Assembly (NCBI RefSeq): GCF_013364195.1
Contig: NZ_CP054918.1
Location: 3,337,001-3,401,000, forward strand
DNA from: Streptomyces sp. NA04227
GTDB lineage: Bacteria; Actinomycetota; Actinomycetes; Streptomycetales; Streptomycetaceae
Length of the DNA stretch: 64,000 nucleotides
Direction: 5' to 3'
In this document: positions 5,710 through 36,818 of the stretch, piece by piece
How the letters are laid out: each line of letters begins with the position of its first letter
Position numbering within the stretch: position 1 is the first letter of the stretch
Made by a program: the position numbers and the translations under genes
The notes under the pieces: model-generated
Told to the model about the DNA's origin: nothing
Seen by the model: the letters and a program-made list of their open reading frames with translations, nothing else
Databases searched by the model: none

Positions 5710-5783
5710 CGGGGTGTAGCGCAGCTTGGCAGCGCGCTTCGTTCGGGACGAAGAGGTCGTGGGTTCAAATCCCGCCACCCCGA
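5710..5783 (+). tRNA. tRNA-Pro (anticodon CGG)
   Basis: The 74-base sequence folds as a complete cloverleaf. The acceptor stem is CGGGGTG/CACCCCG with an A discriminator, the D stem GCGC/GCGC, the anticodon stem CTTCG/CGAAG with loop TTCGGGA (anticodon CGG), a 5-base variable loop, and the T stem GTGGG/CCCGC around TTCAAAT. CCA is not encoded. It is the attachment site of the integrative elements to the right: its 3' part recurs at 24.07, 26.53 and 36.77 kb. Confidence 0.96.
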
Positions 5784-5786
5784 CAG
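5741..5786 (+). repeat. attL core: tRNA-Pro 3' end
   Basis: The 46 bases from the anticodon loop through the tRNA end plus three following bases are repeated without mismatch at 26526-26571. A copy at 36774-36818 has one mismatch, and a more diverged copy lies at 24066-24111. The integrase gene starts its 3' end 130 bases to the right, the usual attL layout for AICEs. Confidence 0.9.
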
Positions 5787-5800
5787 CTAAAAACGCAGAT

Positions 5801-5834
5801 CAGGCCCGGTCTCCTTCCAAGGAGACCGGGCCTG
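5801..5834. terminator. Perfect 14-bp hairpin after tRNA-Pro
   Basis: CAGGCCCGGTCTCC at 5801-5814 pairs perfectly with 5821-5834 around a 6-base loop. It sits 18 bases past the tRNA and probably ends its transcript. Similar hairpins follow the tRNA fragments at 26.6 and 36.8 kb. Confidence 0.8.
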
Positions 5835-5855
5835 ACTCGTGTGCGGGTGCCCTCC

Positions 5856-5902
5856 GGGGAGTGGCTGGGGAGTGGATCATGGAATTTCACTCCCCAGCCA
5901 CT
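5856..5902. repeat. Candidate integrase arm sites, left end
   Basis: GGGGAGTGG occurs twice (5856-5864 and 5867-5875) with 11-base periodicity, followed by ATCATGGAA. The region also forms a 15-bp inverted repeat (5860-5874 with 5888-5902). An almost identical block lies just inside the right att copy at 26403-26431, and a degenerate one at 24161. This is the layout of arm-type sites of a tyrosine integrase; binding itself is inferred. Confidence 0.6.
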
Positions 5903-5915
5903 CCCCGCCCTCGGC

Positions 5916-7451: not shown

Positions 7452-7805
7452 TCACGCAGCCAGTGCGGATTGTGTGCGAACAACCCGCCGGGGCTTCTTG
7501 GCTCGCAGCGACGCAGACGCCGAATTCGTCGGCATCGTGTGGGTCACCCGTACACGCGAACGCGTCTGGTCAGTGGGGGTCCGCTGATCTCGCAGCGGGA
7601 GCTCCTCGAAGACGAGAACGATCTCGGCGTAGTGCTCGGCGGTGAAGCGATACGCGCCACCGGCCCTCGTGAAGGGGATCCGGCGCTGGCGCGCCTGTTC
7701 CTTCACCCACCACTCCGAGCAGCCGAGTGCCTCGGCGACTTCGGCAGGCCTGAAGAGTTGGGGCAGAGTTGCGGCGGTGACACTGTGACTGCTGTGACTG
7801 CTCAT
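7452..7805 (-). CDS. xis: Excisionase-like HTH protein
   Basis: This 117-residue protein has a winged HTH of the MerR/excisionase type at residues about 15-65 (LFRPAEVAEALGCSEWWVKE, then RAGGAYRFTAEH), followed by a basic tail. AICE excisionases have this size and stand directly upstream of int. Its ATG overlaps the stop of the ATPase gene (ATGA at 7802-7805), so it belongs to the prim-pol/ATPase/xis/int operon. The first codons contain three near-repeats of AGTCAC at 9-base spacing. Confidence 0.82.
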   Translation of the reverse strand: MSSHSSHSVTAATLPQLFRPAEVAEALGCSEWWVKEQARQRRIPFTRAGGAYRFTAEHYAEIVLVFEELPLRDQRTPTDQTRSRVRVTHTMPTNSASASLRAKKPRRVVRTQSALAA

Positions 7806-8821
7806 GCCTGTCCCCCGTTCTCTCCGGGGACGACGTAGCCCCCGTCTTTCCTGATGAGTTGTGCGTCGTTGGCCATGCGCGCGCAGGTCTGGCGGACCAG
7901 GTCCGGCTGGAGACCGGTTCCTGCCGTGATCTGCTTCGGTTTGGCGCCCGGGTTCTCCCGTACGAAGCGGAGGATCGTTGCCCGGGTGTCCCCGATGGTG
8001 TGCTCGGCCGCCGGGCCTTCGAGGAGCTGCCAGGCCCCCGCCTCCGCGTAGAACCGGAGCGCGTATTCGGCTTCGTCCACATCGCGCCCGGTGACATGGA
8101 GAACCCCGTCCGCCTGGCCCCGTGCCCGCTTCAGTACGAGCGTCGCGTCGGCGGCTCCGGCGAGGCCGTTGGTGCCGGAGACCTCGGCAAGGAAGTCGTC
8201 CGACGCCGCCTTGCGGACGTGATGCACGAGCACCATGGCGATGCCGTAGTGGTCCGCGATGCGCTTCGCGTGGCCCACGGCCGCGTAGTCGGCGTCGTAC
8301 GCGGAGGCTCCGGGGGCCGAGTTGCCGCGCATCTTGGCGAACACGTCGATCACGACCATCCGCGCTTCCGGGTTCCGCTCGATCCACTGGGCGATCGCCT
8401 CGTTCCCGCCCTGGGGAAGCGGCGGGCACGAGGTGGCCAGCGTCAGCGAAGCCGGGGCGCGACCGCCCGTGCCCAGGATCTTGCGCATACGGGTCTGAAG
8501 GCGGCGCGGGGTGTCCTCCAGGGCGAGGTACAGGACCGGTCCCGCGTCCACGGGCACGCTATCCATGGCCTGCCCTCCCGCCGCGACCGAGAGGGCGAGT
8601 CCGAGGGACAGCCAGGACTTGCCGACCTTCGGAGGGCCGGCGAGGAGGTTGACTCCCTCCGAAATGATCCCGGGCACGGCCCACTTCGGGTCGGGGAACT
8701 CAGCCGCCAGGAGCTCGTCCGCGGTCCAGGCCGTGCGGATGCGTTGTTGTGCGGGCTGCAGGGGCTGAGGTTCGGCAGCCGGAGTGGAATGCAGGTGGGG
8801 CAGGTTGTGCGGGTCGTTCAC
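7802..8821 (-). CDS. RepA-like AAA family ATPase (element replication)
   Basis: This 339-residue protein resembles the RecA-fold RepA/hexameric helicase ATPases found in plasmids and AICEs. Walker A is GPPKVGKSW near residue 62, Walker B is MVVIDVF near residue 157, and an HHVRK motif typical of the family follows near residue 200. A C-terminal wHTH-like segment (residues about 275-330) may bind DNA. It overlaps the prim-pol gene upstream and xis downstream by four bases each. With the prim-pol it probably initiates element replication after excision, in place of the RepSA type of pSAM2. Confidence 0.85.
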   Translation of the reverse strand: MNDPHNLPHLHSTPAAEPQPLQPAQQRIRTAWTADELLAAEFPDPKWAVPGIISEGVNLLAGPPKVGKSWLSLGLALSVAAGGQAMDSVPVDAGPVLYLALEDTPRRLQTRMRKILGTGGRAPASLTLATSCPPLPQGGNEAIAQWIERNPEARMVVIDVFAKMRGNSAPGASAYDADYAAVGHAKRIADHYGIAMVLVHHVRKAASDDFLAEVSGTNGLAGAADATLVLKRARGQADGVLHVTGRDVDEAEYALRFYAEAGAWQLLEGPAAEHTIGDTRATILRFVRENPGAKPKQITAGTGLQPDLVRQTCARMANDAQLIRKDGGYVVPGENGGQA

Positions 8822-9717
8822 GCGGCCCTCCGCCCGGCGATGGTGCGGGGGCGCTTGGCTCCGGCCCAGAGGCCCGAGACGATCGTCCGGCGGATGTCCG
8901 GCTCCGCCAGGCCCACGCCGAGGGCGGGCGCCAGGAGCTGCTCGGTCACCTCGGCCTCGGTGAGCTCACCGCCCGCGACGAGTTGGCCGAGCGCGACGGA
9001 CGCCTGGTACAAGGCATCGTTACGTCCGCCCTCCGCGCTTCGGGCGACGCGGTCCCGCTCACCGTTCAGAGCGGCGAGCAGGTATGAGCTGTGCCTTCCG
9101 TCGGCTGTCAGCGGTACGGCGACGGGGCGCTGAGGTGGAAGGGCGGCGGGGGCGAGAAGCCGAGCCAGCCAGTTCGGAAGCGGTACGGGCGCCGTGTCGT
9201 GCACGACGGTGTACCTCTTGGCATCCACTCGGCTGCCAGCCCCAACGACATAGCCGCCGCACGCCCGGGTGTCGACCTTCCAGCCGAGGGCGCCCGCGCT
9301 GTTGCGGAGCTCCACGTCGGCGGGGGCCGTGAAGTAGAGATGGGTTCCGCCGCTCGCCGTACGGACGGTGAACGTCTCGATGGCGGAGCGCTGCCCGTGC
9401 TTCTCAGCCAGGTCGGCAAACACATCCGCGCCGTCGGTCACGGCCCGGTCGACGTTCGCCGGGGGAACGTCCCGGTCGTGCTTGGGGACGTCCAGGTCGA
9501 CGACCACGAGACCCGAAGGGCCGCAGGCCACGCCGTAGTTGTACGTCGCGGTCGACCAGCAACGGGTGATCCGGCTGGTGTCGATGGTGGCGCGCGACTC
9601 CCAGGAACGAATCGCGGGCCGCTTGACGCCGGGTACGAGAGGGAAAACGCGCCAACCGCGTTCGGCGGCGGACAGAGCGCTCCGAAGCAGGAGCGAGCGG
9701 GGTGAGATCTGGTGCAT
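8818..9717 (-). CDS. Bifunctional primase/polymerase (prim-pol)
   Basis: This 299-residue protein has the archaeo-eukaryotic primase fold of the prim-pol family. The N-terminal block RGWRVFPLVPGVKRP is typical. The metal-binding pair is in LVVVDLD (near residue 75), followed by the conserved TASGGTHLYF and the GGYVVGAGS strand. The C-terminal 100 residues are helical. It is translationally coupled to the RepA-like ATPase (ATGA at 8818-8821), and this pair defines the prim-pol class of AICE replication modules. Confidence 0.88.
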   Translation of the reverse strand: MHQISPRSLLLRSALSAAERGWRVFPLVPGVKRPAIRSWESRATIDTSRITRCWSTATYNYGVACGPSGLVVVDLDVPKHDRDVPPANVDRAVTDGADVFADLAEKHGQRSAIETFTVRTASGGTHLYFTAPADVELRNSAGALGWKVDTRACGGYVVGAGSRVDAKRYTVVHDTAPVPLPNWLARLLAPAALPPQRPVAVPLTADGRHSSYLLAALNGERDRVARSAEGGRNDALYQASVALGQLVAGGELTEAEVTEQLLAPALGVGLAEPDIRRTIVSGLWAGAKRPRTIAGRRAA

Positions 9718-11147: not shown

Positions 11148-13361
11148 CTATGCGGCGTCGGCCCGACCGTCACGTTCCGCGAGTGCTTTGAGGATGTCGG
11201 CGCGCTTGATGCCACGCCGGTTGGCGCCCTTGCCGTCGTCGGTGCTGCCCCACACCTGGCCCGTGCGGATGCCGAACGGTTTGACGGCTGCGGCGAGTTG
11301 CTCAAGGGTCCAGTCGCCGTAGATGTCCGGCCGGAGCTCCGCCAGCCGGGACACGACGGTTTCTGACCAGACCTTCGGCTCCTCGGCGGGAATCACCGCC
11401 AGCAGGTCGGCCAACAGGTCATGTGCGGAGGCGGTTTCGGTCTCGGGCTGCTCGCCGAGTGCGTGCCCGGCGAGCGTTCCGGCCCGCTCGCGCAGGGCTC
11501 GGGCTCGGAGGGCAATGCGGTCCGCTGCCACCGCGTCGATGAACGCGGAGCGGACGATCCGCGCGTCGGCGCCCTCGCCGAGGAAGTAGCAGATGCCCTT
11601 GTCGCCCCAGGCGAACATGTTCGCCCGCACACCACGCTTGTAGGCACCGGTGCCGAGGACCATGTCGTTCTCGATCTGCCCCATGACCTTCAGGCACCAG
11701 CGGGCCGAGGCGTTGGCGCTGATCGCGGTCGGAAGGCTGTCCCGGTCCGGCCGCTGAGTCGCGAGCAAGAGCACGATCCCCGTCGCCGGGCCGCGCTTGA
11801 CGAGGTCGGTGCAGATCTCTTTGAACTCCCCTCCGTGCTTGGGGTGTTCGAACCAGACCTGGCACTCGTCCACGCCGACCACGATGGGATGCAGACCGAG
11901 GGAGCGCTTCGACGCCAGCTCGGTGGTCACCTTCGACTCCGGGCAGATGTCGCGCGGCAGCGACCGGATGACCTTCGCGCGCCTGCGCAGCTCCCCCTGG
12001 AGCTCCCGCATGTCCGCGAGGGCGTACTCGATGTCCGCATCTTCCTCGCCCGCGCGGTGCCGGTACCCGACCCGGTCGCCGACCGAGTCGAGGTCACCGG
12101 TTCCCTTGAGGTCGTACGTGTGCAGCTCGGCGCGCGGGTCGAGGGCGGCGATCAGCAGGAGCAGCCGCAGGAGGAAGGTCTTGCCCATGCGCGGGATGGC
12201 GCCGATGACGCCAGCGATGAACATGAGCGTCACGCCGACCCACCGGCCGCGCTGATCCGTTCCCCAGGCGACCGGCTTGAACAGGTCGACCGTGCCGGAC
12301 TCGGCAAGCGGCCACTTCGCGTTGGGAACCTGGGACATGTCCTGGTCCCCGACCCAGAGGCGCAGGCGGCCGGTGTGCTCGTCAGGCACTGCCTCGGGCC
12401 ACACGCATCCCAGCGGGCGGCGCAGGCCGGAGGCCAGCTTCTCGCGGCGCTCGATGACGTCGGTCACCGTGACGCCGTACGGGAGGTCGCCTTCGGCCAG
12501 CCATCCGGGACCGTCCCGGGTGATCGGTGCCGTGAAGTTGAAGCCGGGTCCGCCCTTGGACTGCGCCTGGTTGATCGCCGGGATGCCGAGCGAGCCCAGC
12601 GCACGGAGCACGATGTCGCTGGTGAGCTTCGTGGCCTTCGGAACGTCCACAGCCCTGTGGACCACCGGGTCGTCGGCCGGTTGCCCCAGCCAGCCCAGCG
12701 CCATGACGACCACGGAACCGGCCAGGGCAAGCAGCCAGCCCGGGGCCAGGACGTACAGGGCCAAGGCAGTGGTGAGGCCCACGATCGAGGCCATCACCGC
12801 GACCACGGACCGCCAGCGCACCCGGCGGTCCCGCTGCCGCGAGAGCTTCAGGTACTCGCCAATGTCCTCATGGGCGGCGGCGGCTCGCCGGAATGGCTCT
12901 CCCTCGGCATCGAAGACCCAGCGAACGGAGCCTCCGACGAAGTGAGCCGCCCCGACGGGTGCCCGGGCCGCGAGCCGCGCCCCGTACCAGGGAGTGCGTA
13001 CGGCGTGGAAGGCTGCAACGTGCCCCGCGTACGCGGCGACTCCCTTCCCGGCGGCCTTGAACTCTTGGGTCGACCTGGCCCAAGTAGGTACAACCGGACG
13101 GCGCTTGGACCGAAGGATGCGGTCCATCAGACCGGGGCTGGCCGGACCGCCCGGCTGGTCGACGAATGTGGGCTCGTCGGGGTTGGTCAGGTCGTCCTCG
13201 TCCTCGTTTCCTGCGACTGGGGCATCGTCGAGCTCCGGTCGGTCCGCACGGCGCTTGTCCAAGTCGAACACCGCGCCCTCGGAATCGGGACTCATCTCCT
13301 TCTCAAGACGGGCGAACAGCTCGCGCTCGTCGTCGTTGTTGTCCCCGTGCTTCACTGGCAC
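11148..13361 (-). CDS. traB: TraB/FtsK-SpoIIIE family conjugal DNA translocase
   Basis: This 737-residue protein is the sole large transfer protein typical of AICEs, a hexameric motor that moves double-stranded DNA between hyphae. The acidic N-terminus is followed by two membrane segments near residues 185-230. Walker A is AIPRMGKTF near residue 390, Walker B is PIVVGVDE near residue 495, and the FtsK-type ATQRPDRDSLP box follows. The last 70 residues form a winged helix (YGDWTLEQLAAAVKPFGIRT), the region that recognises clt repeats in homologues. It starts the leftward transfer/replication transcript below the DUF2637 protein. Confidence 0.93.
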   Translation of the reverse strand: MPVKHGDNNDDERELFARLEKEMSPDSEGAVFDLDKRRADRPELDDAPVAGNEDEDDLTNPDEPTFVDQPGGPASPGLMDRILRSKRRPVVPTWARSTQEFKAAGKGVAAYAGHVAAFHAVRTPWYGARLAARAPVGAAHFVGGSVRWVFDAEGEPFRRAAAAHEDIGEYLKLSRQRDRRVRWRSVVAVMASIVGLTTALALYVLAPGWLLALAGSVVVMALGWLGQPADDPVVHRAVDVPKATKLTSDIVLRALGSLGIPAINQAQSKGGPGFNFTAPITRDGPGWLAEGDLPYGVTVTDVIERREKLASGLRRPLGCVWPEAVPDEHTGRLRLWVGDQDMSQVPNAKWPLAESGTVDLFKPVAWGTDQRGRWVGVTLMFIAGVIGAIPRMGKTFLLRLLLLIAALDPRAELHTYDLKGTGDLDSVGDRVGYRHRAGEEDADIEYALADMRELQGELRRRAKVIRSLPRDICPESKVTTELASKRSLGLHPIVVGVDECQVWFEHPKHGGEFKEICTDLVKRGPATGIVLLLATQRPDRDSLPTAISANASARWCLKVMGQIENDMVLGTGAYKRGVRANMFAWGDKGICYFLGEGADARIVRSAFIDAVAADRIALRARALRERAGTLAGHALGEQPETETASAHDLLADLLAVIPAEEPKVWSETVVSRLAELRPDIYGDWTLEQLAAAVKPFGIRTGQVWGSTDDGKGANRRGIKRADILKALAERDGRADAA

Positions 13362-15723: not shown

Positions 15724-16512
15724 ATGGCGACTGCCTACGAGAAGATCGCGGGAGGGCTCCGCGCGCGCATTCGCGCAGGTGAGCTGGCCCCCGGGGACAA
15801 GCTCCCCTCGGAGGCAACCCTCGTCAAAGAGTCCGGGAAGAGCGGGCCGACCGTGCAGCGAGCTCTCTCGGTCCTCCAGGAAGAGGGGCTGATCGAGAAG
15901 CGGCACGGCATCGGCAACTTCGTCCGCAAGCCGCGCACGAAGGCCCTGCGGGACAACTGCCGCCACCAGTGGGAGAAGGACCGGGCCCGCGAGTCGGTCG
16001 AGCTCCGGAAGCAGACCGGCGCCACCGAGCACGACACGGGCCTCGAAATCGATGACCTCGTCTTCTACGCCTCATACCGCAAGACAAAGGCGACCGCGGA
16101 ACTCGCCGAGGTCTTCGGGCTCCCTGAGGGCACGCCGCTCCTGAAGCGCACCTACCGGACCCGCTACGCGGCTGAAACAGCCCCGTTCAACCTGGTCACG
16201 TCGCACCTGGTCCACAGCATGGTCGAGGGCAACGCCGATCTCCTGGACGACGCCAACGAACCGTGGCCCGGCGGCACGCAGAACCAGCTCCACACCGTCG
16301 GCATCGAACTCGATCGCATCGAGGAACGGGTGACCGCCCGCCCGCCGACCCCCGAGGAGACCGAGGAGCTCGAACTCCTCCCGGGAACTTCGGTGATCGT
16401 GCTGCGCAAGATCTCGTACGACATCAAGGACCGCGTCGTGGACGTCTCGGACATCACGCTGCCCGGCGACCGCACGGAACTGCTCTTCACCACTCGCCTG
16501 GAAAGGTGGTAA
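15724..16512 (+). CDS. GntR-family regulator with UTRA domain (KorSA-like)
   Basis: This 262-residue protein has a GntR winged helix at residues about 5-70 (YEKIAGGLRARIRAGELAPG, then VQRALSVLQEEGLIEKRHGIGNF) and a UTRA effector domain to the C-terminus. It starts at ATG 15724 behind AGGAGA. In pSAM2 the GntR protein KorSA represses replication and transfer genes. The position opposite the transfer block and the strong operator suggest the same role here. The UTRA ligand is unknown. Confidence 0.88.
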   Translation: MATAYEKIAGGLRARIRAGELAPGDKLPSEATLVKESGKSGPTVQRALSVLQEEGLIEKRHGIGNFVRKPRTKALRDNCRHQWEKDRARESVELRKQTGATEHDTGLEIDDLVFYASYRKTKATAELAEVFGLPEGTPLLKRTYRTRYAAETAPFNLVTSHLVHSMVEGNADLLDDANEPWPGGTQNQLHTVGIELDRIEERVTARPPTPEETEELELLPGTSVIVLRKISYDIKDRVVDVSDITLPGDRTELLFTTRLERW

Positions 16513-16517
16513 CCCCC

Positions 16518-17291
16518 GTGCCTGGACGCATCGTCGTCATCACGGCCGTCCACCCGCCGTCCGCGCACTTCCTGCCGGACGCGTTCAAGTCGCTGTGCGA
16601 ACAGGAACTCCCCGACGGCTGGGACTGGCACTGGCTAATCCAGGAGGATGGCAAGAGCGACCAGGTCGCGCCGCACGTCCCGGACGACCCGAGGGTGACC
16701 TTTCACCAGGGCCGGGCCGGCGGCCCCGGCACCGCGCGCACGATGGCCCTGGCGCACGCGGACGGCGCGTACGTGAAGGTCCTGGACGCCGACGACCAAC
16801 TCCCGCCGGGCGCCCTGGCCCGCGACCTCGCGGCGCTGGAGAACGCCCCGACCGTCGGATGGGCGACCTCACGCGTCCTGGACCTGCTCCCCGACGGCTC
16901 GACCGCAGGTTTCCCGGGCGACCCGGACCACGGCCCCGTCGAGCGCGGCGCTGTGCTCGACTTCTGGACGGCGAACAACTACCGCGCCCAGGTCCACCCG
17001 GCCACCCTGTTCGTCCGCCGCGAGCTGCTCCTCGCTCTGGGCGGCTGGATGGCCCTTCCGGCCTCCGAGGACACCGGCCTTCTGCTCGCCCTGAACGCCG
17101 TGAGCCGCGGCTGGTTCTCCAGCGAGGTGGGGCTCCTCTACCGCAAGTGGGAGGGCCAGGTGACTGGCCAGGCCGCGCACGTCGACCCGGCCGAGCGCGA
17201 CGCCCGCATGGCGGTCGTGGAGGCGCGGGCGCGCACGCTCGGCCTCTACGGCTGGCGCCACCCGGCGGAGGAGAACCCGGTCACGGGTTGA
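16518..17291 (+). CDS. Family 2 glycosyltransferase (AICE cargo)
   Basis: This 257-residue GT-A enzyme opens with RIVVITAVHPPS and has the nucleotide-sugar motif VLDADDQLPPG near residue 90 (DxD-type), with the acceptor-side ASEDTGLLLAL near residue 185. It is soluble, with no membrane segment. The GTG start lies five bases after the GntR stop, so the two are cotranscribed. Its end overlaps the convergent GntR gene by 11 bases. Sugar and acceptor cannot be told from sequence. Confidence 0.8.
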   Translation: MPGRIVVITAVHPPSAHFLPDAFKSLCEQELPDGWDWHWLIQEDGKSDQVAPHVPDDPRVTFHQGRAGGPGTARTMALAHADGAYVKVLDADDQLPPGALARDLAALENAPTVGWATSRVLDLLPDGSTAGFPGDPDHGPVERGAVLDFWTANNYRAQVHPATLFVRRELLLALGGWMALPASEDTGLLLALNAVSRGWFSSEVGLLYRKWEGQVTGQAAHVDPAERDARMAVVEARARTLGLYGWRHPAEENPVTG

Positions 17292-21998: not shown

Positions 21999-22033
21999 CT
22001 CGATCGCCCTTCTTCGCCGTGCACGCAAAGCCT

Positions 22034-22132
22034 GGCTGAAACACTTGGGTGTCACAGCCGTCACAGAGTCACACCTACCCTCTGACCAGGTCGAACTACC
22101 CGGCAGCAACCGTGACACCCCCTGTTTCAGCC
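22034..22132. promoter_or_regulatory. Long imperfect inverted repeat with GTCACA repeats before fkbM
   Basis: 22034-22055 (GGCTGAAACA...GGTGTCAC) is mirrored with small changes at 22112-22132. Between the arms GTCACAGCC, GTCACAGA and GTCACAC stand in near-tandem. The block is between divergent genes and could be an operator. GTCACAG repeats also occur in the first codons of xis. Confidence 0.45.
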
Positions 22133-22208
22133 TCCCATGCCCCACCAACGACGAACACTCGTAAGATCATCCAGTCATCTTTATGAGTGGGCGTTAGGGG
22201 CGAGGGCG

Positions 22209-24065: not shown

Positions 24066-24111
24066 CTTCGGCACGAAGAGGCCGTGGGTTCAAATCCCGC
24101 CACCCCGACAG
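24066..24111 (+). repeat. Diverged tRNA-Pro 3' fragment (internal att copy)
   Basis: From 24083 to 24111 the sequence is identical to the tRNA-Pro 3' end plus flank. The anticodon-loop part has changes, including a shortened loop and a T to C at 24082. It marks a former or current element junction. Confidence 0.85.
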
Positions 24112-24160
24112 AGAAACAGCAGGTCGGGCCTTTTGCCTAAGCTGGCAGCCTCTGGGCAGC

Positions 24161-24200
24161 GAGGAGTGGATCATGGAAGTGATCCACCCGGGGAGTGAGC
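24161..24200. repeat. Degenerate arm-site block
   Basis: GAGGAGTGGATCATGGAAGT at 24161-24180 matches the left-end arm block at 5867, and GGGGAGTGAGC lies at 24190-24200. It stands 50 bases right of the internal tRNA fragment, as if it were the left end of a second, related element. Confidence 0.55.
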
Positions 24201-26402: not shown

Positions 26403-26431
26403 GGGGAGTGAGCGGGGAGTGGATCATGAAA
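26403..26431. repeat. Candidate integrase arm sites, right end
   Basis: GGGGAGTG (26403-26410) and GGGGAGTGG (26414-26422) with 11-base periodicity are followed by ATCATGAAA. The block is almost identical to that at 5856-5884 and lies 95 bases inside the perfect att copy at 26526, supporting 5741-26571 as a complete element. Confidence 0.6.
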
Positions 26432-26525: not shown

Positions 26526-26571
26526 GTTCGGGACGAAGAGGTCGTGGGTTCAAATCCCGCCACCCCGACAG
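26526..26571 (+). repeat. att copy with perfect 46-bp identity to attL
   Basis: GTTCGGGACGAAGAGGTCGT through the tRNA 3' end and CAG match 5741-5786 at every base. The 5' half of the tRNA is missing, so this is an attachment-site duplicate and not a tRNA gene. Confidence 0.9.
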
Positions 26572-26585: not shown

Positions 26586-26618
26586 AAGGGCCTGATCCGC
26601 ATAGCGGGTCAGGCCCTT
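26586..26618. terminator. Hairpin after the third tRNA fragment
   Basis: 26586-26600 (AAGGGCCTGATCCGC) pairs with 26604-26618 with one G-T pair and a 3-base loop. A closely related hairpin follows the fourth fragment at 36831-36867, so the two flanks share ancestry. Confidence 0.7.
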
Positions 26619-26639
26619 CCTGCGTCTCCGGTGATCGTT

Positions 26640-26680
26640 TGGGAGAAATCTGGGAGAAGATCTTGGTCGGGGTCTCCCAG
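26640..26680. repeat. Second-type arm block, TGGGAGAA pair
   Basis: TGGGAGAA occurs at 26640-26647 and 26651-26658 with 11-base periodicity, and TCTCCCAG at 26673-26680 mirrors it. The distance from the att core (69 bases) is almost the same as for the GGGGAGTGG pair at the first site (70 bases). It looks like the left end of a different integrase's element. Confidence 0.5.
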
Positions 26681-26898: not shown

Positions 26899-29478
26899 AT
26901 GCGGGCCGAGGAATCGCACTTCGCCGACCTGGTGCAGGGACGAGCCCAGCAGTTCCAGGTGCCGCTCTACCAGCGGACGTACTCCTGGACGGAGAAGCAG
27001 CTGGCACAGTTATGGGGCGACATCCTGGACCAGGCAGAACTGGTGGGTGCGGATTCAACGGTGAGCACGCACTTTCTCGGTTCTGTCGTGCTTGCCCCCT
27101 CGCCGCAGAACGAGGCGACGTTCCCGCGCTGGCTCGTCGTCGACGGTCAGCAGCGGCTGACCACTCTCTCCCTCGCGCTCACCGCTATCCGCGACCACGT
27201 GGCCAAAGCAGAGCCGGACGAGGCAGAGCGCATCGACGAGGAATACCTCATCAACAAGCGCAAGAAGGGCGGCGATCGCCTCCGCCTGCTGCCCACCCAG
27301 GCAGACCGGCCACAGTATGCCGCGCACGTTCATGGTGGGCGGCGGGAGCAGACTTCGGGAGACAGGGTCGCTGCGGCCTATAGCTTCTTCCAGCGCAAGC
27401 TGCTGGAGCTCATGGAGACGGACGGCACTTCAGCGCCCAAGGATGTGCTGCGAATCGAGCAGGCAATCACGTCCAGACTCACGCTGGTCACCGTGACGGC
27501 GGAGCGCCGCGACAACGTGCACCGCATCTTCGAGTCGCTCAACAACACCGGGCTGAAGCTCAGTCAGGCCGACCTGCTGCGCAACTACTTGTTCATGCGC
27601 CTGCGGGCCCGCGGCGAGCAGGTGTACGAGACCCACTGGCTACCGCTGCAGAACAGCCTGAGCAACGACGAGCTCGAACAACTGATGTGGCTGCAGCTGG
27701 TCCTTGACGGAGACGACCGGGTCCGCCGCCAGGACCTGTACACCGCTCAACAGCAGCGCTTCGAAGGCGGGGCTTCAGATGGGACGCAGACAGAGGCGGA
27801 CATCGAGGCGTACATCATGGAGTTGCACCGCCGCAGCGTCCACTTCCGGAAGGTGATCCGCCCCGAAGAGGAGGCGCATCCTCTGATCCGCGGGTATCTG
27901 AAGCGGTTGCACGACTGGCAGGCCGTCGTGACCTATCCAGCGCTGATGTTGATACTCGACTGGCGGGAGCGGGGAGAAGTCGACGACGACGAAGCCGCCG
28001 AGGCCCTGTCGTACATCGAGAGTTTTCTGGTGCGACGGACGATCTGCCGTGTGCCGACGAACAACCTCAACAGGATCTTCCAGTCCGTGCCAGCGCAGCT
28101 CCCGCGGGATGTGGGCGTGGCCACCGGACTGCACCAACTCCTCTCTGCCGAGAACCGGTTCTGGCCGGATGACGAGGAACTGCGCCAGAAGATCCGTACC
28201 GCGCCCTTCTACCAGTACGGGCGGCCGAACCAGCGAAGGCTGGTGCTCCAGCGGATGGAGGAGAGTTACGACCATCCCGAACCGGTCGACTTCGCATCGG
28301 CGCAGCTGACGATCGAGCATGTGATGCCGCAGTCGCCCGGCGACGAGTGGATGCGCATGCTGAACGACGACGCCACACAGGGCGAGACGGCGGAAGAGCT
28401 GCATTCCCGGCTGCAGCACACACTCGGCAATCTGACGCTGACCGGCGTGAACTCGGAGCTGTCGAACCACCCCTTCGAGCGCAAGCAGGGGCTGCTTAAC
28501 GGCAGCCACCTGGAGATGAACCGGCGCATCGCCGCCACCGACCGCTGGGGCGCCAAGGAGATCCTGGCGCGGGCCGACGATCTCGCCGACCGGGCGATCC
28601 GTATGTGGCCAGCCCCTCTGAGCGGTGTCGGACGCGCTGAGCGCAGCCGGGACTGGCGCCTCGCCCATCAGGTACTCGCCGCGCTTCCGCACGGCACCTG
28701 GACGTCCTACGGAGATCTGGCTGCGTTCATCGGCTCAGGCGCCCAAGCCGTGGGCGCTCACCTCGCCAACAGCGAAGGCGTGGTCAACGCCTATCGAGTG
28801 CTGAATGCCGACGGCAAGATCGCTGAAGGTTTCCGATGGACCGGGCAGGACGGCGGGGACGTGCGTGCTCGGCTGAGCGCCGACGGCATCCACTTCACGA
28901 TCGCGGGTGCGGCGGACCCGGCACAGCGCCTCACCGTTGATGATCTCGCCCTGCTCCTTGAGAGTGCCGAGGGGCAGCCCGCAGAGGCGGCTGCGCCGAC
29001 TGGTCCGGCGGGGCAGGGAGACGAGACCCGAGCCGCACGGTTCCTGCGCCAACTCACGGCGGACGACGCCCCAGCGACCGTCTCCGCCGTCCACGAGCTG
29101 CTCACACACTGGAAGAGCCTCGGGGGATGGATCGGGTACGGAGCCGGCGAGGTCACCACGAGCGCGTTCCTCATGCTGGGCCAGGCTGGTGCCCCGGGCC
29201 AGGGCATCTGGCCGCTGACGCTCTACCCCGGAAGCGGGCGCGGCGGAACAGGGGAGATCGTGTTCGCCCACATGGCGAACCGTGAGCCGTTCACAGACCG
29301 GGCCTTGCGCGTCGAATTGCTGGACCGGGTGAACGAAATGGAGGACGTCTCGATCTCGGAAGGCAAGCTGGAGCTGCGGCCCAGCTTCCGCCTCTCCGTT
29401 CTGGAGGAAGACCTCAACAGGGAGAGCCTGTTCGCGACCCTGACTTGGTTCCGGGACTGCTGGGAGCGGAGGAACTGA
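26899..29478 (+). CDS. DUF262-DUF1524 protein with alkyltransferase-like domain (type IV restriction-like)
   Basis: This 859-residue protein starts with DUF262 (GmrS-like): VPLYQRTYSW at residues 21-30 and the nucleotide-hydrolysis motif DGQQRLTTL at 82-90. DUF1524 (GmrD-like His-Me nuclease) has IEHVMPQ near residue 470 and a downstream NLTLT-N block. GmrSD proteins cleave modified DNA. Residues about 585-650 match the MGMT/alkyltransferase-like fold (LPHGTWTSYGDLAAFIG, then NAYRVLNADG), where the active-site PCHR reads NAYR, so the Cys is Ala and it should bind rather than repair alkylated bases. The last 200 residues are unassigned. A TTA codon at 27010 suggests bldA dependence. It stands alone right after an att copy. 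Confidence 0.88.
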   Translation: MRAEESHFADLVQGRAQQFQVPLYQRTYSWTEKQLAQLWGDILDQAELVGADSTVSTHFLGSVVLAPSPQNEATFPRWLVVDGQQRLTTLSLALTAIRDHVAKAEPDEAERIDEEYLINKRKKGGDRLRLLPTQADRPQYAAHVHGGRREQTSGDRVAAAYSFFQRKLLELMETDGTSAPKDVLRIEQAITSRLTLVTVTAERRDNVHRIFESLNNTGLKLSQADLLRNYLFMRLRARGEQVYETHWLPLQNSLSNDELEQLMWLQLVLDGDDRVRRQDLYTAQQQRFEGGASDGTQTEADIEAYIMELHRRSVHFRKVIRPEEEAHPLIRGYLKRLHDWQAVVTYPALMLILDWRERGEVDDDEAAEALSYIESFLVRRTICRVPTNNLNRIFQSVPAQLPRDVGVATGLHQLLSAENRFWPDDEELRQKIRTAPFYQYGRPNQRRLVLQRMEESYDHPEPVDFASAQLTIEHVMPQSPGDEWMRMLNDDATQGETAEELHSRLQHTLGNLTLTGVNSELSNHPFERKQGLLNGSHLEMNRRIAATDRWGAKEILARADDLADRAIRMWPAPLSGVGRAERSRDWRLAHQVLAALPHGTWTSYGDLAAFIGSGAQAVGAHLANSEGVVNAYRVLNADGKIAEGFRWTGQDGGDVRARLSADGIHFTIAGAADPAQRLTVDDLALLLESAEGQPAEAAAPTGPAGQGDETRAARFLRQLTADDAPATVSAVHELLTHWKSLGGWIGYGAGEVTTSAFLMLGQAGAPGQGIWPLTLYPGSGRGGTGEIVFAHMANREPFTDRALRVELLDRVNEMEDVSISEGKLELRPSFRLSVLEEDLNRESLFATLTWFRDCWERRN

Positions 29479-30827: not shown

Positions 30828-30853
30828 TGACGAGGGTGCGGAGGGGAAACAAG

Positions 30854-31744: not shown

Positions 31745-31759
31745 CGCCTGGCCATGTGT

Positions 31760-31800
31760 GGCCGCCGCAACCCACGGTTCGTCCGTGTGGTGCGGCGGCC
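31760..31800. terminator. Terminator after the 296-residue gene
   Basis: GGCCGCCGCA (31760-31769) pairs with TGCGGCGGCC (31791-31800), and the inner bases CCACGG/CCGTGTGG pair further. It separates the first two secreted genes from the large esterase gene. Confidence 0.65.
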
Positions 31801-31913
31801 TCGCACGTATGCAGTCCTCCCCTCCATGTACAGGACGCCGCCGGACCAAGAGTTCCGCGCCTGGCGCAAAGGTGTGCAGTCCCGCATGGCGGAGCACCCG
31901 ATGGAAAGGACGA

Positions 31914-34900
31914 GTGTTGAGACCCCACAGACGACTCCGGGCCTCTTTGGCCGTCACGCTGACCGGCGGGATATTAGCTAGCTTCCTGCACGCCAACGCC
32001 TGGGCCGATAACACCACCTCGAAGGCGGACCCGGCCCCGCCGCCGACGAGAACCTCACCCGCCTCGTTGCCCCCGGGCGACCGTGCCGAAATGCTGGGCC
32101 CGGAGTACCGCAACTCGCAAGACATCGCCTGGACCACCACGGGTGACGCACAAGGTTTCCATCTGCTGGCCGCGACGGAGAAGAGCGGCTACGCATGGAA
32201 GACCCTGGCTTCCCTCGCCGAACCCGGATTCGACGCAGACCAGTGGATCGGCAACGTGTGCCTAACCGGGTCTGGAAAACGAGCCGTCGTCGTCTATGCC
32301 CCGCGGACCTTCACCAACGACCCGGTACTGATGGCCCGAGGAGGGTTCACCGCAGTCGTCGACCTGGCCAGCGGACGCGTACAGAAACTCCCGGTCAACG
32401 CCTCGCTCTCCTACTACAACCCCGGCTGCGGCACGGGCGATGAGGCCATCCTCACCCAGTCCCCAGGAGAGAACAAAAAACAGACCCGCCTCATCCGAGT
32501 CAACGCAGTAACGGGCAAGTTGAGCAGGCCGATTGTCGCGCACGGCCAGATCACCTCCGCTTCCCCAGCCGACGGAGGAAAGGTCGCTGCCGCGTCGGGC
32601 CGCACACTGGTGGAAATCGACACCGCCGGACACAAGAAAACCCTCACAACGACCAAAACAGTGCCATATCGCATCAGCAAGGACAGCGACGGCGGTTACG
32701 TGTTCCTCGAACGCGTGCAGCGCAACCGCCTCCAGCAGGCGGAGACGGCGACCGTCCGCCGATGGGCAAACGGAAAATTGTCCGAGCTGGGGACGGGCCC
32801 TCTCAGCGATACCGGCCTCACGCGGCGAGGGGGAGACGTCTACCTAACCGGTGCCGTCAAGGCCGCGAAGCGCCTCCCTCAGACCGTCAGGCGCCTCAAA
32901 GGGACGAGCAGTAACGCGACCCTCTCTTCCGCAGGCACGACGGTCATTCAGAACACTGTATGGGCGGATGGCAAGGGCTCCCCGAAGTACCTGCATCCGG
33001 AACAAGCTACGGACGCCCGCTCGGTCAACATCTCTCTCACGATCCGCCGGACCGGAAAGCACACGGACTTCACCGTGACCCCGCTCCAGACCATGGCCCC
33101 GCGGTGGGAGACCTCCCGGGCCCCCTCCCCCCTTCTGAAGAGGACCCAGGGCACCAGCAATACCGGGGGAAGCGAGCGAAACGGTATCCACCTGGCGCGT
33201 GCGTATGACACCAGCGGAAGCCGTACGGAAATCGTCGAGTCCGAGCGCACGTGCTCCGTTCCACGCAACGACCCGCGTAACCAGGCTATGCAGCCCAAGC
33301 CGCGGCAAGTGGAGTGGGCCGTCGACAAAGCGATCACCGGAAAGCTGAACATCGGCGCCTCGAGGCCAGCAAATTGGAAGAACCTCGGGATGCCCGCCTA
33401 CTCACCGCAGACCCTCTTCCCCAACCCCGCACTGGAGGGCGGCGGCAGGGTGCCGGCCCAGGTGATGCTCGGCATCACTGCGCAGGAGTCGAACATGTGG
33501 CAGGCGGCCCGCTCTGCCGTGCCGGGCGTGACAGGAAACCCGTTGATCGGGAACTACTACGGAATCGACTACTACGACGGGGACAGCAGCAACGACTGGG
33601 ACATTGACTGGTCCGACGCCGACTGTGGTTACGGCATCACCCAGGTAACCGACCACATGCGTATGGCAGGGCGTGAGCACGGCAAGGGCGGCACCGCCTG
33701 GGACTACCAGAAGCAGCGCGCCGTCGCCCTCGACTACGCTGCCAATGTCGCCGCCGGGCTGCAGATCCTCGTGTCGAAGTGGAACCAGACTCGCAAAGCG
33801 GGCTTGGCCGTACACGACGGTGACCCGACCAAGCTGGAGAACTGGTTCTTCGCCTTGTGGGCATACAACTCCGGCTTCTACGAGAACGTCAACGGTAACG
33901 AACCCTGGGGCGTGGGCTGGGCGAACAACCCGGCCAACCCTGAATGGGACGCTGGCCGCACCCCGTTCATGGAGGATCGCCTCGGAAACGAGGATGCCGC
34001 CGACGCCGCCCGCCCGCAGAACTGGCCATATCCGGAGAAGGTTCTAGGGTTCGCCGCACACCCCCCGTCGTTCCTCGAATCCCCGGGCACACTCGTGCCA
34101 GCTTTCCGTGCAGCCTGGTGGAACGGCACCAGCGAGGACGCCACGATCAAAGGCTCCGCCAAGTACAACCGTGCCCGTGTGAAGCCGCCGGAGGACCTGT
34201 TCTGCGGCCCCTACAACTGGTGCGAACCATCGAAAATCGGCGACGACGCTCAAAACGAACCCGGTCAAGGCCCCTGCACGCGCACAGACTTCAAATGCTG
34301 GTTCAACCAATCAGTGCAATGGAAGAGCAACTGCAGCTACGAATGCGGCAACGAATTCTTTCGCTTCACCTCCCCGGATTACGATGCCGAGCAGGCGGAC
34401 GGCACTGCCTATGCTCCGAACTGCACGCACAACGGCCTCCCTTCCGGGTCGCTGATCGTAGACGACTTGCCGGAGGGATCTCCGTCTGTCAGGCCGAACT
34501 GCGCAAACAGTGACTGGACGAACCAAGGCTCCTTCACCTTCGACTTCGGGGCCGGAGAAGGAGGCAAGGCCCATGACGGCACTGCGGCCACCGTATGGCC
34601 GGCCAAGGTCGACCTGCACCAACTCGGCGCCGGCTTCGGAGGTCACTTCTACTTCGGCCACAGTCGCACCGACGACGCCAAGGGCAGTCGCCTGAACATG
34701 ACCGGCACGTGGAAACTCGACCAGTCACGAAGCGACTGGATGCGCGTCCTCGTGCACTTGCCAGATCATGGGGCACATTCACAGCAGGCCAAATACGAGA
34801 TTGACACCGGAACCGGTAGCTTCACCGAATACCGCCACCTCAACCAAAAGCGCCTCGCCAACGGTTGGGTATCCCTGGGTTCGTACAAGATGAGCGGAAC

Positions 34901-35897
34901 TCCCCGCGTCCGCCTCAGCACTCAGACGCGCGATGGAACCGGTGACGACGATGTGGCCTTCGATGCCGTCGCCTTCCAGCCACTCCCTGGAAAACCTCAA
35001 CACATCGCAATACTCGGAGACTCCTACACCTCAGGCGAGGGGGCGGGCAACTACTCCAAGGAGTCCGACGGCGACTACGGCACGTCCCGTTGGAACGCCT
35101 GTCGACGCAGCATCAACTCATGGGCCCGTAAGACTGCCCTTCCCGGCCAAAGCGCCACACTTGGAACGCTAGCCGACATTTTCTCAACCTCAGTCGAATT
35201 CCAGAACGTCTCCTGCTCGGGCGCCAAAACATGGCAGGTTCTCTCGGGCACCCCGATTGACGGCGACGGGAACGAGAAGTGGGGATTCGACGGAAACTTC
35301 CACGAGACGTTCCAGATCGACTCCGGGGTCCTCAACGCCGACACCAATCTCGTTGCCCTCACTATCGGGGGAAACGACGCGGGATTCCCGAAGGTGATGG
35401 AGGGGTGCGCGACCCTCGGATGCCCCTCGGATGACGACGTCAAGCAGGGCATTGACAGCGCCCTCCCAGGGATCGAACAAGTACTGCGTCAGATCCATGC
35501 CGAGGCCGTAAACGCAAAAATCGTCCTGCTCGGCTATCCCAGACTGTTCAACGAAAACGCAGGGTTCTGCCTAAGTGGTGTCGGCGGAAATGAGGACGTG
35601 AGCTGGCTGAACACGATGGGCGAGTACATGGAGAATAAGCAACAGCAACTCGTGGACTCACTCAAGCAGCAGGGCCTGCCGGTCAGTTTCGAATCCCCCG
35701 ACTCCGACTTCGAGGGCAAGCGGGCCTGTGACGACAACGAAGGAATCAACAAGATCGTGACAGCCCCGGAAGGCGACGGGGACTTCCGCTGCGAGTTCGG
35801 CGGTTCCTGGTGCGTCAGTCGCGAGAGCTATCATCCGAACGGCGTAGGCACCTCCGCCTATGCGGCGGCCTTCAGCCGCGCGGTCGGCAAACTCTAG
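31914..35897 (+). CDS. Large secreted protein: lytic-transglycosylase-like region plus SGNH hydrolase
   Basis: This 1327-residue protein starts at GTG 31914 (or TTG 31917) behind AAGGA. A signal peptide (RLRASLAVTLTGGILASFLH, ending in AWA) contains a TTA codon. Residues about 50-430 are beta-rich, perhaps a propeller. Residues about 500-680 resemble lytic transglycosylases: VMLGITAQESNMW with a candidate catalytic Glu near 525, and CGYGITQVTDHM. Residues about 850-1020 are Cys-containing and beta-rich, golvesin-like. The C-terminal SGNH hydrolase has GDSYTSGEG near 1035 (Ser), GGNDAGF near 1152, and SYHPNGVG near 1305 (His). This would combine glycan cleavage with deacylation outside the cell. 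Targets are unknown. Confidence 0.8.
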   Translation: MLRPHRRLRASLAVTLTGGILASFLHANAWADNTTSKADPAPPPTRTSPASLPPGDRAEMLGPEYRNSQDIAWTTTGDAQGFHLLAATEKSGYAWKTLASLAEPGFDADQWIGNVCLTGSGKRAVVVYAPRTFTNDPVLMARGGFTAVVDLASGRVQKLPVNASLSYYNPGCGTGDEAILTQSPGENKKQTRLIRVNAVTGKLSRPIVAHGQITSASPADGGKVAAASGRTLVEIDTAGHKKTLTTTKTVPYRISKDSDGGYVFLERVQRNRLQQAETATVRRWANGKLSELGTGPLSDTGLTRRGGDVYLTGAVKAAKRLPQTVRRLKGTSSNATLSSAGTTVIQNTVWADGKGSPKYLHPEQATDARSVNISLTIRRTGKHTDFTVTPLQTMAPRWETSRAPSPLLKRTQGTSNTGGSERNGIHLARAYDTSGSRTEIVESERTCSVPRNDPRNQAMQPKPRQVEWAVDKAITGKLNIGASRPANWKNLGMPAYSPQTLFPNPALEGGGRVPAQVMLGITAQESNMWQAARSAVPGVTGNPLIGNYYGIDYYDGDSSNDWDIDWSDADCGYGITQVTDHMRMAGREHGKGGTAWDYQKQRAVALDYAANVAAGLQILVSKWNQTRKAGLAVHDGDPTKLENWFFALWAYNSGFYENVNGNEPWGVGWANNPANPEWDAGRTPFMEDRLGNEDAADAARPQNWPYPEKVLGFAAHPPSFLESPGTLVPAFRAAWWNGTSEDATIKGSAKYNRARVKPPEDLFCGPYNWCEPSKIGDDAQNEPGQGPCTRTDFKCWFNQSVQWKSNCSYECGNEFFRFTSPDYDAEQADGTAYAPNCTHNGLPSGSLIVDDLPEGSPSVRPNCANSDWTNQGSFTFDFGAGEGGKAHDGTAATVWPAKVDLHQLGAGFGGHFYFGHSRTDDAKGSRLNMTGTWKLDQSRSDWMRVLVHLPDHGAHSQQAKYEIDTGTGSFTEYRHLNQKRLANGWVSLGSYKMSGTPRVRLSTQTRDGTGDDDVAFDAVAFQPLPGKPQHIAILGDSYTSGEGAGNYSKESDGDYGTSRWNACRRSINSWARKTALPGQSATLGTLADIFSTSVEFQNVSCSGAKTWQVLSGTPIDGDGNEKWGFDGNFHETFQIDSGVLNADTNLVALTIGGNDAGFPKVMEGCATLGCPSDDDVKQGIDSALPGIEQVLRQIHAEAVNAKIVLLGYPRLFNENAGFCLSGVGGNEDVSWLNTMGEYMENKQQQLVDSLKQQGLPVSFESPDSDFEGKRACDDNEGINKIVTAPEGDGDFRCEFGGSWCVSRESYHPNGVGTSAYAAAFSRAVGKL

Positions 35898-35903
35898 GCA
35901 GGC

Positions 35904-36416
35904 ATGACGACTGAACAACGAGGTAGGGCCGCGCCTTGGGCGAAGATCCTGGGCGCGGTCCTTCTCGCCCTCACCGCGGCACTCATGGTCTCGTTCGTCG
36001 TAGCGAACTCCCGCGCCTCCGCCAGAGAACGGGATGCCTTCGACAGCACGCGGGCCGACGCACGGCGCTTCGCAGACAGCCTCCTTGCCAAGGCCGCCGC
36101 CGACGGCCGCCCCTCCCGAGAGCAAGTGCTGGAAGCCCTCACGTCGGCAACCGGCAACATGCGAGGCAACGGCGCGCTTCACACCATGAGTTTCACAGAC
36201 AACGGAACCCGGATCGTGGCTCAGTTCTCTCGTGTGTACGAGCGTCCGCTCACTCTGTTCGGTCAGACGGAAACCATGGCACACCGCTGTTTCACCTTCG
36301 ATTTCCCTCCAGGCGCGACAGAGCCGTCGCAGGTCCGGATCGAGGCGCACGGCGCCGACGAGTCCTGCTCGGAGCTCACCGCAACGGGACAACGGCACGG
36401 CGCACAATCTCAATGA
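35904..36416 (+). CDS. Membrane-anchored hypothetical protein
   Basis: This 170-residue protein has one N-terminal membrane segment (ILGAVLLALTAALMVSFVVA), a helical stalk (residues about 38-75), and an outer beta-rich domain with two Cys (AHRCFTFDFPPGA, DESCSEL) that could be disulfide-bonded. It begins six bases after the large esterase gene and is surely cotranscribed with it; an anchor or immunity role is possible but not shown. Confidence 0.65.
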   Translation: MTTEQRGRAAPWAKILGAVLLALTAALMVSFVVANSRASARERDAFDSTRADARRFADSLLAKAAADGRPSREQVLEALTSATGNMRGNGALHTMSFTDNGTRIVAQFSRVYERPLTLFGQTETMAHRCFTFDFPPGATEPSQVRIEAHGADESCSELTATGQRHGAQSQ

Positions 36417-36653
36417 AGGAGGCCCGGCAGGGCTTGCCGCGGGCGCCGGGTTGGGTGGTGCTGATGGCCCCTGATCGGCGCGGATCATCGGCGCTGGATC
36501 TGCCGTGCCGACAACCACGTTCGGAACTCAGCTCCGAAAGCGTACGGCTGACTGCACATGAGCTGCGCTCCAGGATCTGGCTTCGTTCACCTTCAGATCG
36601 TGAACAAAACCAGTACCAGGAACTCCGCCGCGTTTCCTGTGCCTTTAGAGGTC

Positions 36654-36740
36654 TTAACAAAGGCGTTGGACGTGGCGGTGGGTGATCAGGCATGTGGCGA
36701 GGCCGAGGAAGGCTTCGTGGATGTCGTCGCGTCGTTGCCG
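36654..36740 (-). pseudogene. IS transposase 3' remnant (IS5-like)
   Basis: The minus strand encodes RDDIHEAFLGLATCLITHRH-VQRLC followed by TAA at 36656-36654, the typical C-terminus of Streptomyces IS5-type DDE transposases. Only about 27 codons are recognisable before similarity stops near 36740. The rest of the element is gone. Confidence 0.65.
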
Positions 36741-36773
36741 ATCCGGCCTGTTAACGATCACGCCCAACTCTCA

Positions 36774-36818
36774 TTCGGGACGAAGAGGTCCTGGGTTCAA
36801 ATCCCGCCACCCCGACAG
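36774..36818 (+). repeat. att copy, one mismatch from tRNA-Pro 3' end
   Basis: TTCGGGACGAAGAGGTC, then C instead of G at 36791, then identity to the tRNA end and CAG. The tRNA 5' half is missing. It marks the right boundary of the third integrated unit. Confidence 0.88.

Follow-up and report, generated by a model that had tools for sequence, protein, structure and literature searches.

The stretch analysed here (the window, 64,000 nucleotides) carries several copies of the 3' end of one tRNA-Pro gene, and the question was how many mobile elements they delimit and which integrase each of these elements belonged to. The preliminary description divided 31 kb into three units accreted in tandem (a near-complete AICE, a 2.4-kb remnant and a 10.3-kb unit without an integrase) and suggested that the last unit may be mobilised in trans by the AICE integrase. 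In tandem arrays at tRNA genes, near-identical cores alone cannot assign units to integrases. Our preferred reading of the sequence, to which we give a probability of about 0.78, is that one tRNA-Pro(CGG) gene is followed by a stack of two elements that share their target and differ in arm type: element A, which is AICE-like, and unit B, a decayed element of the GGAGAA class. The flanking arm types suggest that A and B had different integrases.

A plain scan of both strands of the window, allowing up to 10 mismatches, found four copies of the 46-bp core (5741-5786), all on the plus strand (Table 1). In 100 first-order Markov resamples of the window (plus strand), no chance match had fewer than 16 mismatches and the mean of the best matches was 19.9, compared with 0, 3, 0 and 2 of 46 in the observed copies, so that all four tRNA-Pro 3' ends are real. 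The coordinates given for them earlier were correct; the single mismatch reported for copy 4 arises from a count over 45 bp from 36774. The cores are near-identical because all are copies of the same tRNA gene. The other tRNA-Pro gene of the genome (TGG anticodon, L004) was rejected as the origin of copy 2, which has 9 mismatches to that gene versus 3 to the CGG gene. The hairpin that follows the tRNA is probably a terminator.

Table 1. Features of the tRNA-Pro locus (positions in the window)
Feature	Position	Strand	Evidence or remark
tRNA-Pro (CGG), attachment gene	5710..5784	+	ARAGORN; Rfam RF00005
att core copy 1, within intact tRNA gene	5741..5786	+	reference copy
Perfect hairpin 3' of tRNA	5800..5835	+	17-nt inverted repeat
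Left arm of A, GGAGTG type	5856..5906	+	GGGGAGTG, two direct and two inverted
Tyrosine integrase, 505 aa	5916..7433	-	Pfam; predicted model
Excisionase-like protein	7452..7805	-	TIGR01764 25.0 bits (below cut-off, 28.8); phrog_1840 6.4e-11
AAA_25 ATPase, probable replication helicase	7802..8821	-	PF13481 4e-37
Prim-Pol primase/polymerase	8818..9717	-	PF09250 2.4e-45
FtsK/SpoIIIE-like protein, possible TraB	11148..13361	-	phrog_1358 2.6e-21; NCBIfam TraB 23.1 bits (cut-off 800)
Cargo: family 2 glycosyltransferase	16263..17291	+	PF00535
GntR/UTRA regulator	17281..18036	-	
GntR/UTRA regulator	18997..19740	+	
Cargo: FkbM-type methyltransferase	21075..22148	-	
att core copy 2, internal remnant in A	24066..24111	+	3 mismatches
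Degraded GGAGTG-like half arm behind copy 2	24151..24175	+	30% mismatch to type consensus, above calling limit
Right arm of A, GGAGTG type	26404..26428	+	121 bp before copy 3
att core copy 3, A right end and B left end	26526..26571	+	0 mismatches
Hairpin 3' of copy 3	26586..26618	+	
Left arm of B, GGAGAA type	26641..26664	+	0% mismatch to GAA consensus
GmrSD-type restriction protein with alkyltransferase-like DNA-binding domain	26899..29478	+	PF03235 3.9e-36; PF07510 2.9e-28; PF01035 4.3e-8; PADLOC
1379-aa protein, golvesin C-terminal and GDSL hydrolase domains	31758..35897	+	
att core copy 4, B right end	36773..36818	+	2 mismatches
Hairpin 3' of copy 4	36831..36867	+	
Degenerate GGAG arm-like repeats at about left-arm offset	36877..36910	+	pattern match G000 3373800-3373891; 38% mismatch to GAA consensus, not callable

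The tRNA-Pro(CGG) locus was compared in 19 genomes of the same genus, in which about 14-24 kb behind the tRNA was scanned and an extra core was accepted at up to 9 mismatches. The cores are not conserved backbone: 11 of the 19 genomes have no extra core and 8 have one or two. Among the genes of the window, only the upstream one was present in all 19. Behind the tRNA, one gene lies within reach in 8/19; it is about 3.5 kb from the tRNA in G018, and the window homologue is about 87.6 kb away. Cores and locus comparison together support tandem accretion at a single tRNA-Pro gene, as originally proposed. The ABC transporter genes to the right of 36.8 kb were tried as a conserved right flank and were not usable; two of the four closest homologues were checked, and these lie on a different contig from the tRNA (G002) and about 197 kb from it (G031).

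Units were assigned by paired 11-bp repeats resembling integrase arm sites, which lie at the element ends at +115 to 118 and -121 to 122 from the core start and occur in four types (GGAGTG, GGAGAA, GGAGCC and TGGAGAA). Of 37 elements, A included, 3 were not callable; left and right types agreed in every one of the other 34, compared with a mean of 11.7 and a maximum of 23 in 20,000 shuffles; GTG-type elements with both arms number only two. Elements entered this count where the genome had a second core in reach. One core was found in each of G236, G357 and G207, and the second core of G192 is far off on the other side; sites L177, L184, L185, L206 (a duplicate of G034) and L207 were left out. 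Tandem junctions in this set often join differing arm types, from which no avoidance of same-type neighbours is claimed. The order seen in the window recurs in G314, where a GGAGTG element adjoins the tRNA and is followed by a GGAGAA element with its own GGAGAA-class integrase. The types are probably not interchangeable in the cell; integrases may cross-react between them. The att scans of the arm and element surveys used a best-match regular expression, which may pass over a weaker copy that precedes a better match. Copy 2 of the window was missed in this way, as was the tRNA copy in two loci; the window cores, the 19 same-genus loci and the integrase-less loci were recounted by plain scan.

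By these repeats, element A covers 20.8 kb (5741-26571) with GGAGTG arms at both ends. Unit B (26526-36818) has both cores, an intact GGAGAA left arm and a GmrSD-type gene, and an arm-type consensus scan found no right arm before copy 4; this arm may lie elsewhere or be dispensable. Pfam searches of the scanned ORFs found neither integrase nor transfer genes in B, as is characteristic of a CIME. No integrase match in B was better than E 0.5 and no integrase fragment in 22-64 kb better than E 0.04, in agreement with the earlier view that the last unit lacks an integrase. The repeats beyond copy 4 may mark the left end of yet another element, now decayed. On the preferred reading B consists of the left end and cargo of a GGAGAA-class element from which the integrase, any transfer genes and the right arm have been lost, and A, which lies next to the tRNA, was probably the last to arrive. 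At present B would be able to leave only in company with A, through recombination of the tRNA copy with copy 4, or not at all. Movement of the whole 31 kb as one composite by this route, that is accretion with cis-mobilisation, is an alternative that we consider unlikely. Two tandem AICEs of Frankia are described as excising singly and together (PMC3218068), and CIMEs are described as moving by accretion and cis-mobilisation (PMC7563491). However, with two mismatches and no right arm, copy 4 makes a poor right end, and the 5741/26571 pair is better formed.

Of the earlier description, the tandem accretion is supported, and the border of the first unit probably needs revision. It is better drawn at 26571, because the GGAGTG arm at 5857, which had gone unnoticed, has its partner at 26404 and copy 2 has none. 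An older, smaller remnant (24066-26571) would have been absorbed into the right end of A. The earlier drawing, which ends A at 24111 and keeps the 2.4-kb piece as a remnant in its own right, appears unlikely. The half arm to the right of copy 2 is what would be expected for a left end, but the arm-type consensus scan found no right arm to the left of copy 2 (24066), copy 2 has diverged from the tRNA core, and the partner of the left arm of A lies beyond it. A may have ended at 24111 in the past; this is less likely for the present mobile unit. The 24066-26571 piece could also own the arm at 26404, that of A having been lost, and A would then be a composite with matching ends.

Element A, drawn as 5741-26571, has a site-specific integrase, att repeats in a tRNA 3' end and a replication gene (Prim-Pol with AAA_25). 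Prim-Pol is an accepted AICE replication type. A is AICE-like, and its excision is predicted. The FtsK-like protein has no Pfam match and only a degenerate Walker A motif.

The integrase of A has a core-binding domain and the catalytic R-K-H-R-H-Y set (R211, K248, H421, R424, H447 and Y456, invariant in 55 aligned sequences), and is apparently intact. A LacI helix-turn-helix at about residues 303-345 lies inside the catalytic domain, between K248 and H421. Residues 1-62 form the N-terminal domain, for which the model predicts a b-b-b-a fold at 2-54; most structural rows begin at about residue 60. In 38 integrase-arm pairs, MI/H with arm type was 0.63 for residues 1-62 compared with 0.37-0.48 elsewhere, and the nearest neighbour on residues 1-62 gave the arm type in 38/38 cases compared with 32-35 for other parts of the protein. 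The LacI helix-turn-helix is not supported as the arm reader, its MI/H (0.39) being no higher than elsewhere. Four of 42 integrase rows were omitted from this set (L126, L147 and L159, no att found; L154, gene past the stretch end with the frame lost). One GGGAGCC match sufficed for the GCC type, and L149 and L152, each with a single clear repeat, were counted. When integrases more than 85% alike elsewhere were excluded, residues 1-62 were right in 32/38 and other parts in 9-12. Held-out cases were predicted in 13/13 by residues 1-62 and in 11/13 by the rest of the protein, the held-out integrases having 0.82-1.0 identity to known ones over residues 1-62 and so lying close to them. These 13 were scored by eye from 20 loci, of which five had no att in the stretch and two had diverged integrases with a new arm type.

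From this covariation, residues 1-62 probably bind the arm repeats. The covariation is not independent of descent, because arm types partly follow the clades of the integrase tree (4 changes, with a minimum of 3). We regard it as improbable, though, that the types are mere labels of descent with no role in recognition. Such labels would fit the clustering on the tree and the loss of advantage under strict exclusions (above 80% alike, 16/38 for residues 1-62 and 14/38 for residues 63-490; above 75%, 11 each). Against this, the likeness over residues 1-62 is 0.79-0.82 among the three GTG integrases and 0.46-0.56 between these and other classes, whereas over residues 63-490 the values are 0.75-0.76 and 0.70-0.74. 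Moreover, L214 and L221 combine GAA-like residues 1-62 and GAA arms with a remainder nearest to GCC integrases.

A broader proposal is put forward tentatively, at less than even odds. An integrase family sharing one attB would have diverged into classes of arm site, each recognised through roughly the first 60 residues; this code would permit non-excising stacks and decide the rescue of integrase-less ends, and the LacI insert would add DNA contact or control. Units like B would then stay where they are until they meet an integrase of their own class. Arm repeats at set distances from the core, together with the integrase N-terminal domain, could serve as a readable address for element ends, absorbed remnants and the mobiliser of orphans. 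If confirmed, the coexistence of same-site elements becomes directly testable.

Among 392 genomes searched, 147 bear arms, 62 of them without a family integrase. Of 40 loci that bear arms and lack a family integrase, 31 showed no second core in the stretch scanned, which was 2.9-20 kb long (below 10 kb in four). Matching arms at both ends without a recognised family integrase occur in G034, G088, G116 and G174, and in G368 with an 83-residue integrase fragment. Even with these relatives and with border cores 0 and 2 bases off the tRNA core, excision of B as a satellite in trans by the integrase of A, as suggested earlier from the close border match, is not supported and is improbable, since the sole arm of B is GGAGAA, the integrase is GGAGTG-class and no right arm precedes copy 4. 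That integrase is the one full-length member of this family in the genome, so mobilisation of B by it alone is disfavoured; the genome search with this family also showed one distant relative (L011, 24% over residues 36-261).

The preferred stack of A and B has parallels in known systems, cited here from excerpts of the papers. Like AICEs described in Streptomyces and Frankia, tandem arrays among them (PMC9513070, PMC3218068), A combines tRNA 3'-end integration with integrase, replication and FtsK-like genes and accretion at one tRNA gene; it differs in its weak TraB assignment and in the LacI insert, and the excerpts make no use of arm sites to tell tandem elements apart. B, like Streptococcus CIMEs (PMC7563491), is decayed, bears cargo and att cores, and is separated from the target gene by the intact element (compare rule iii of that paper). 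Unlike them, B yielded no right arm, which puts a working attR in doubt, and its arm class differs from that of its neighbour. Dehalococcoides ssrA islands (PMC3146451) also stand in tandem at a single RNA gene, an integration module is missing from some, and they were proposed to be cis-mobilisable; theirs is a serine recombinase, and the excerpts describe no arm-type classes. From the arm-binding-domain tyrosine recombinases of lambda and Tn1549 (PMC8138268), the integrase of A is set apart by the LacI helix-turn-helix that lies between K248 and H421; the main text of that paper does not contain the term LacI. A literature search, with most subscription journals outside its coverage, found no report joining arm types with accretion, and the term "LacI family" in none of the papers that it listed.

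As a side remark on whether the cargo between left arm and integrase might be a defence hot spot, it includes type IIG enzymes, Avs2, viperins and a type IV enzyme (PADLOC and Pfam; 88 proteins, 3 from the window and 85 of 86 picked cargo ORFs). A LacI regulator gene is named in a figure legend on Frankia AICEs (PMC3218068). Public annotation often names this integrase family, of which the wider set comprises 1287 proteins, as LacI regulators, so that surveys by name could miss these elements.

The window is a portion of one 7.89-Mb contig, and the 46-bp 3' part of its tRNA-Pro(CGG) gene was found at four sites (copies 1-4, table) with 0, 3, 0 and 2 mismatches. Among 100 resampled sequences, no chance match came closer than 16 mismatches. 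The four tRNA-Pro repeats of the preliminary description were correctly recognized. For comparison, 19 genomes of the same genus were located via the same upstream gene, and 14-24 kb was fetched from each. Within these stretches, no extra core was present in 11 genomes and one or two were present in 8. In a search with 42 window proteins, the upstream protein was matched in 19/19 genomes and the other proteins in few. Examples are a 72% match to the integrase in G035 and matches to the Prim-Pol and FtsK-like proteins in G020; from unit B, only the GDSL domain was matched (~30%). The absence of extra cores from 11 genomes and the scarcity of protein matches indicate that the units behind the tRNA are acquired DNA. 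A homologue of the gene closely following the tRNA in some relatives (G000:C1:3430364, in the window's own genome) lies ~87.6 kb from the tRNA, so that the intervening DNA exceeds the 31 kb originally described.

Features of the tRNA-Pro locus, in window positions
Feature	Position	Strand	Unit
tRNA-Pro(CGG)	5710-5784
Core copy 1	5741
Core copy 2	24066
Core copy 3	26526
Core copy 4	36773
Element A (AICE-like), proposed extent	5741-26571		A
Integrase, excisionase-like protein, AAA_25, Prim-Pol, FtsK-like protein	within 5.9-22.8 kb		A
Two GntR/UTRA regulators, glycosyltransferase, FkbM methyltransferase	within 5.9-22.8 kb		A
Unit B (cargo)	26526-36818		B
GmrSD-type protein fused to alkyltransferase-like DNA-binding domain (PF01035, residues 591-647)	26899-29478	+	B
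Golvesin/GDSL protein, 1379 aa			B

Copies 1 and 3, like the left ends of related elements, are followed by paired NNGGAGNN repeats with 11-bp spacing, which resemble integrase arm sites and lie +115 to +118 from the start of the core. Right-hand cores, in the window and in relatives, are preceded by a pair of this kind at -121 or -122, and a hairpin followed each of copies 1, 3 and 4. In the window, GGAGTG repeats make up the left arm next to the tRNA as well as the right arm preceding copy 3, and copy 3 is followed by a GGAGAA arm. Behind copy 2 stood a degraded GGAGTG-like half arm, and copy 4 was followed, at roughly the offset of a left arm, by a degenerate GGAG pair. By this arm code, element A would reach from copy 1 to copy 3 and be paired with its own integrase. 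The three units first described (an AICE, a 2.4-kb remnant and a 10.3-kb unit) thus needed one change of border, as the right arm matching the left arm of A sits before copy 3 and none was found before copy 2.

Unit B would originally have been a GGAGAA-class element; the preferred interpretation is that it has decayed and remained behind A. The earlier suggestion that the AICE integrase mobilizes it in trans is disfavored, since its arm is GGAGAA versus GGAGTG in A and no right arm was found before copy 4. The same order was seen in another genome (G314), with a GGAGTG element by the tRNA followed by a GGAGAA element carrying its own GGAGAA-class integrase. A single full-length member of the integrase family is encoded in the window genome; the second-best integrase-like match had 24% identity over residues 36-261, and no trace of a second integrase was found in 22-64 kb of the window.

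The integrase was present in 102 of 392 genus genomes, the window's own included (E <= 1e-40), from which 40 integrase loci were fetched, along with 40 further core sites. Among 37 elements examined, including A, left and right arm types agreed in 34/34 with both arms callable (15 GCC, 12 GAA, 5 TGG and 2 GTG, abbreviating GGAGCC, GGAGAA, TGGAGAA and GGAGTG), although these are not 34 independent events because many elements are related. Shuffled pairing gave a mean agreement of 11.7 and a maximum of 23/34 in 20,000 trials. The left arm of G043 and the right arms of G314-2 and G177 were not callable.

Orphans like B, lacking a family integrase, are common. The left-arm pattern occurred in 147/392 genomes, 62 of them without the family integrase at 1e-40. 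Forty of these 62 were read further; a second core was found within the fetched stretch in 9 and not in 31, and in 4 of the 9 (G088, G116, G174 and G368) the arms at the two ends matched. The G116 second core has 6 mismatches, and the G368 orphan retains an integrase fragment. One additional such element, in G034, also had matching arms.

Across 38 integrase-arm pairs, residues 1-62 were the most informative on arm type (MI/H 0.63 versus 0.37-0.48 elsewhere; LacI part, 0.39). The nearest neighbor on residues 1-62 gave the correct type in 38/38 cases, compared with 32-35 for other parts, and in 32/38 compared with 9-12 when proteins >85% alike elsewhere were excluded. At >80% and >75%, exclusions that left certain integrases without any same-type partner, residues 1-62 scored 16 and 11 of 38 against 14 and 11 for residues 63-490, which argues against over-confidence in residues 1-62 as the arm reader. 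Of 20 held-out loci, 13 had a readable left arm of known type; residues 1-62, whose identity to the closest known counterpart was 0.82-1.0 here, predicted 13/13 and the remainder of the protein 11/13. A new arm, of GGGTGT repeats with unchanged spacing, accompanied two diverged integrases (L224, L225). In a tree of the 38 integrases, GTG and TGGAGAA formed supported groups, GGGAGAA was not one group, and 4 type changes were needed.

For the main reading, in which A is stacked before a decayed B of another arm class, we estimate a probability of nearly four in five; confidence is held down by the 75% exclusion result and because the survey of the genome covered one integrase family. An array in which an AICE-like element has accreted with a decayed neighbor is ordinary in kind. 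Accretion of AICEs at tRNA genes is known, as are defective AICEs that may be mobilized (PMC9513070, PMC3218068). CIMEs are known as well, together with a rule by which decay is greatest in the units most distant from the target gene (PMC7563491). Arm-binding domains are a known mark of mobile-element integrases (PMC8138268). The tie between arm-site classes and the integrase N-terminal domain would be the unusual, testable detail. A narrow literature search found no report of arm-type classes in accretion arrays or of a LacI insert in an integrase. The attP arm sites of pSAM2 have reportedly been the subject of earlier work.

Relatives of the Prim-Pol (46 and 45% identity) and FtsK-like protein (70 and 69%) occur in elements of G020 and G284, respectively, which carry a different arm-repeat kind, GGGGGCCAAAC; the integration module was therefore probably exchanged. 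The PF01035 part of the GmrSD-type protein is 46% identical to a cargo protein in another locus (L154). By eye, 36640-36772, directly left of copy 4, has the appearance of an insertion-sequence remnant; a Pfam scan of a single nearby ORF (36376-36693) gave no match.

The integrase of A (5916-7433, - strand) belongs to a family whose catalytic domain contains a LacI helix-turn-helix and whose members often carry the name LacI-family transcriptional regulator in public annotation. Among the 120 listed relatives are proteins from Streptomyces, Micromonospora and other actinomycetes. In 39 loci with att (from L124-L163 and G035 (L077, L076), window included), core and integrase gene were separated by 1.5-9.8 kb containing cargo in 31, and by ~160-175 bp in 8, including element A. 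Cargo between left arm and integrase includes restriction, Avs2, viperin and other defense-like proteins. At least two more groups of integrases also use this tRNA-Pro gene; their arm-like repeats are of other kinds, GGGGGCCAAAC and TGCGTGNCTA (L079, L081, L087, L088, L157).
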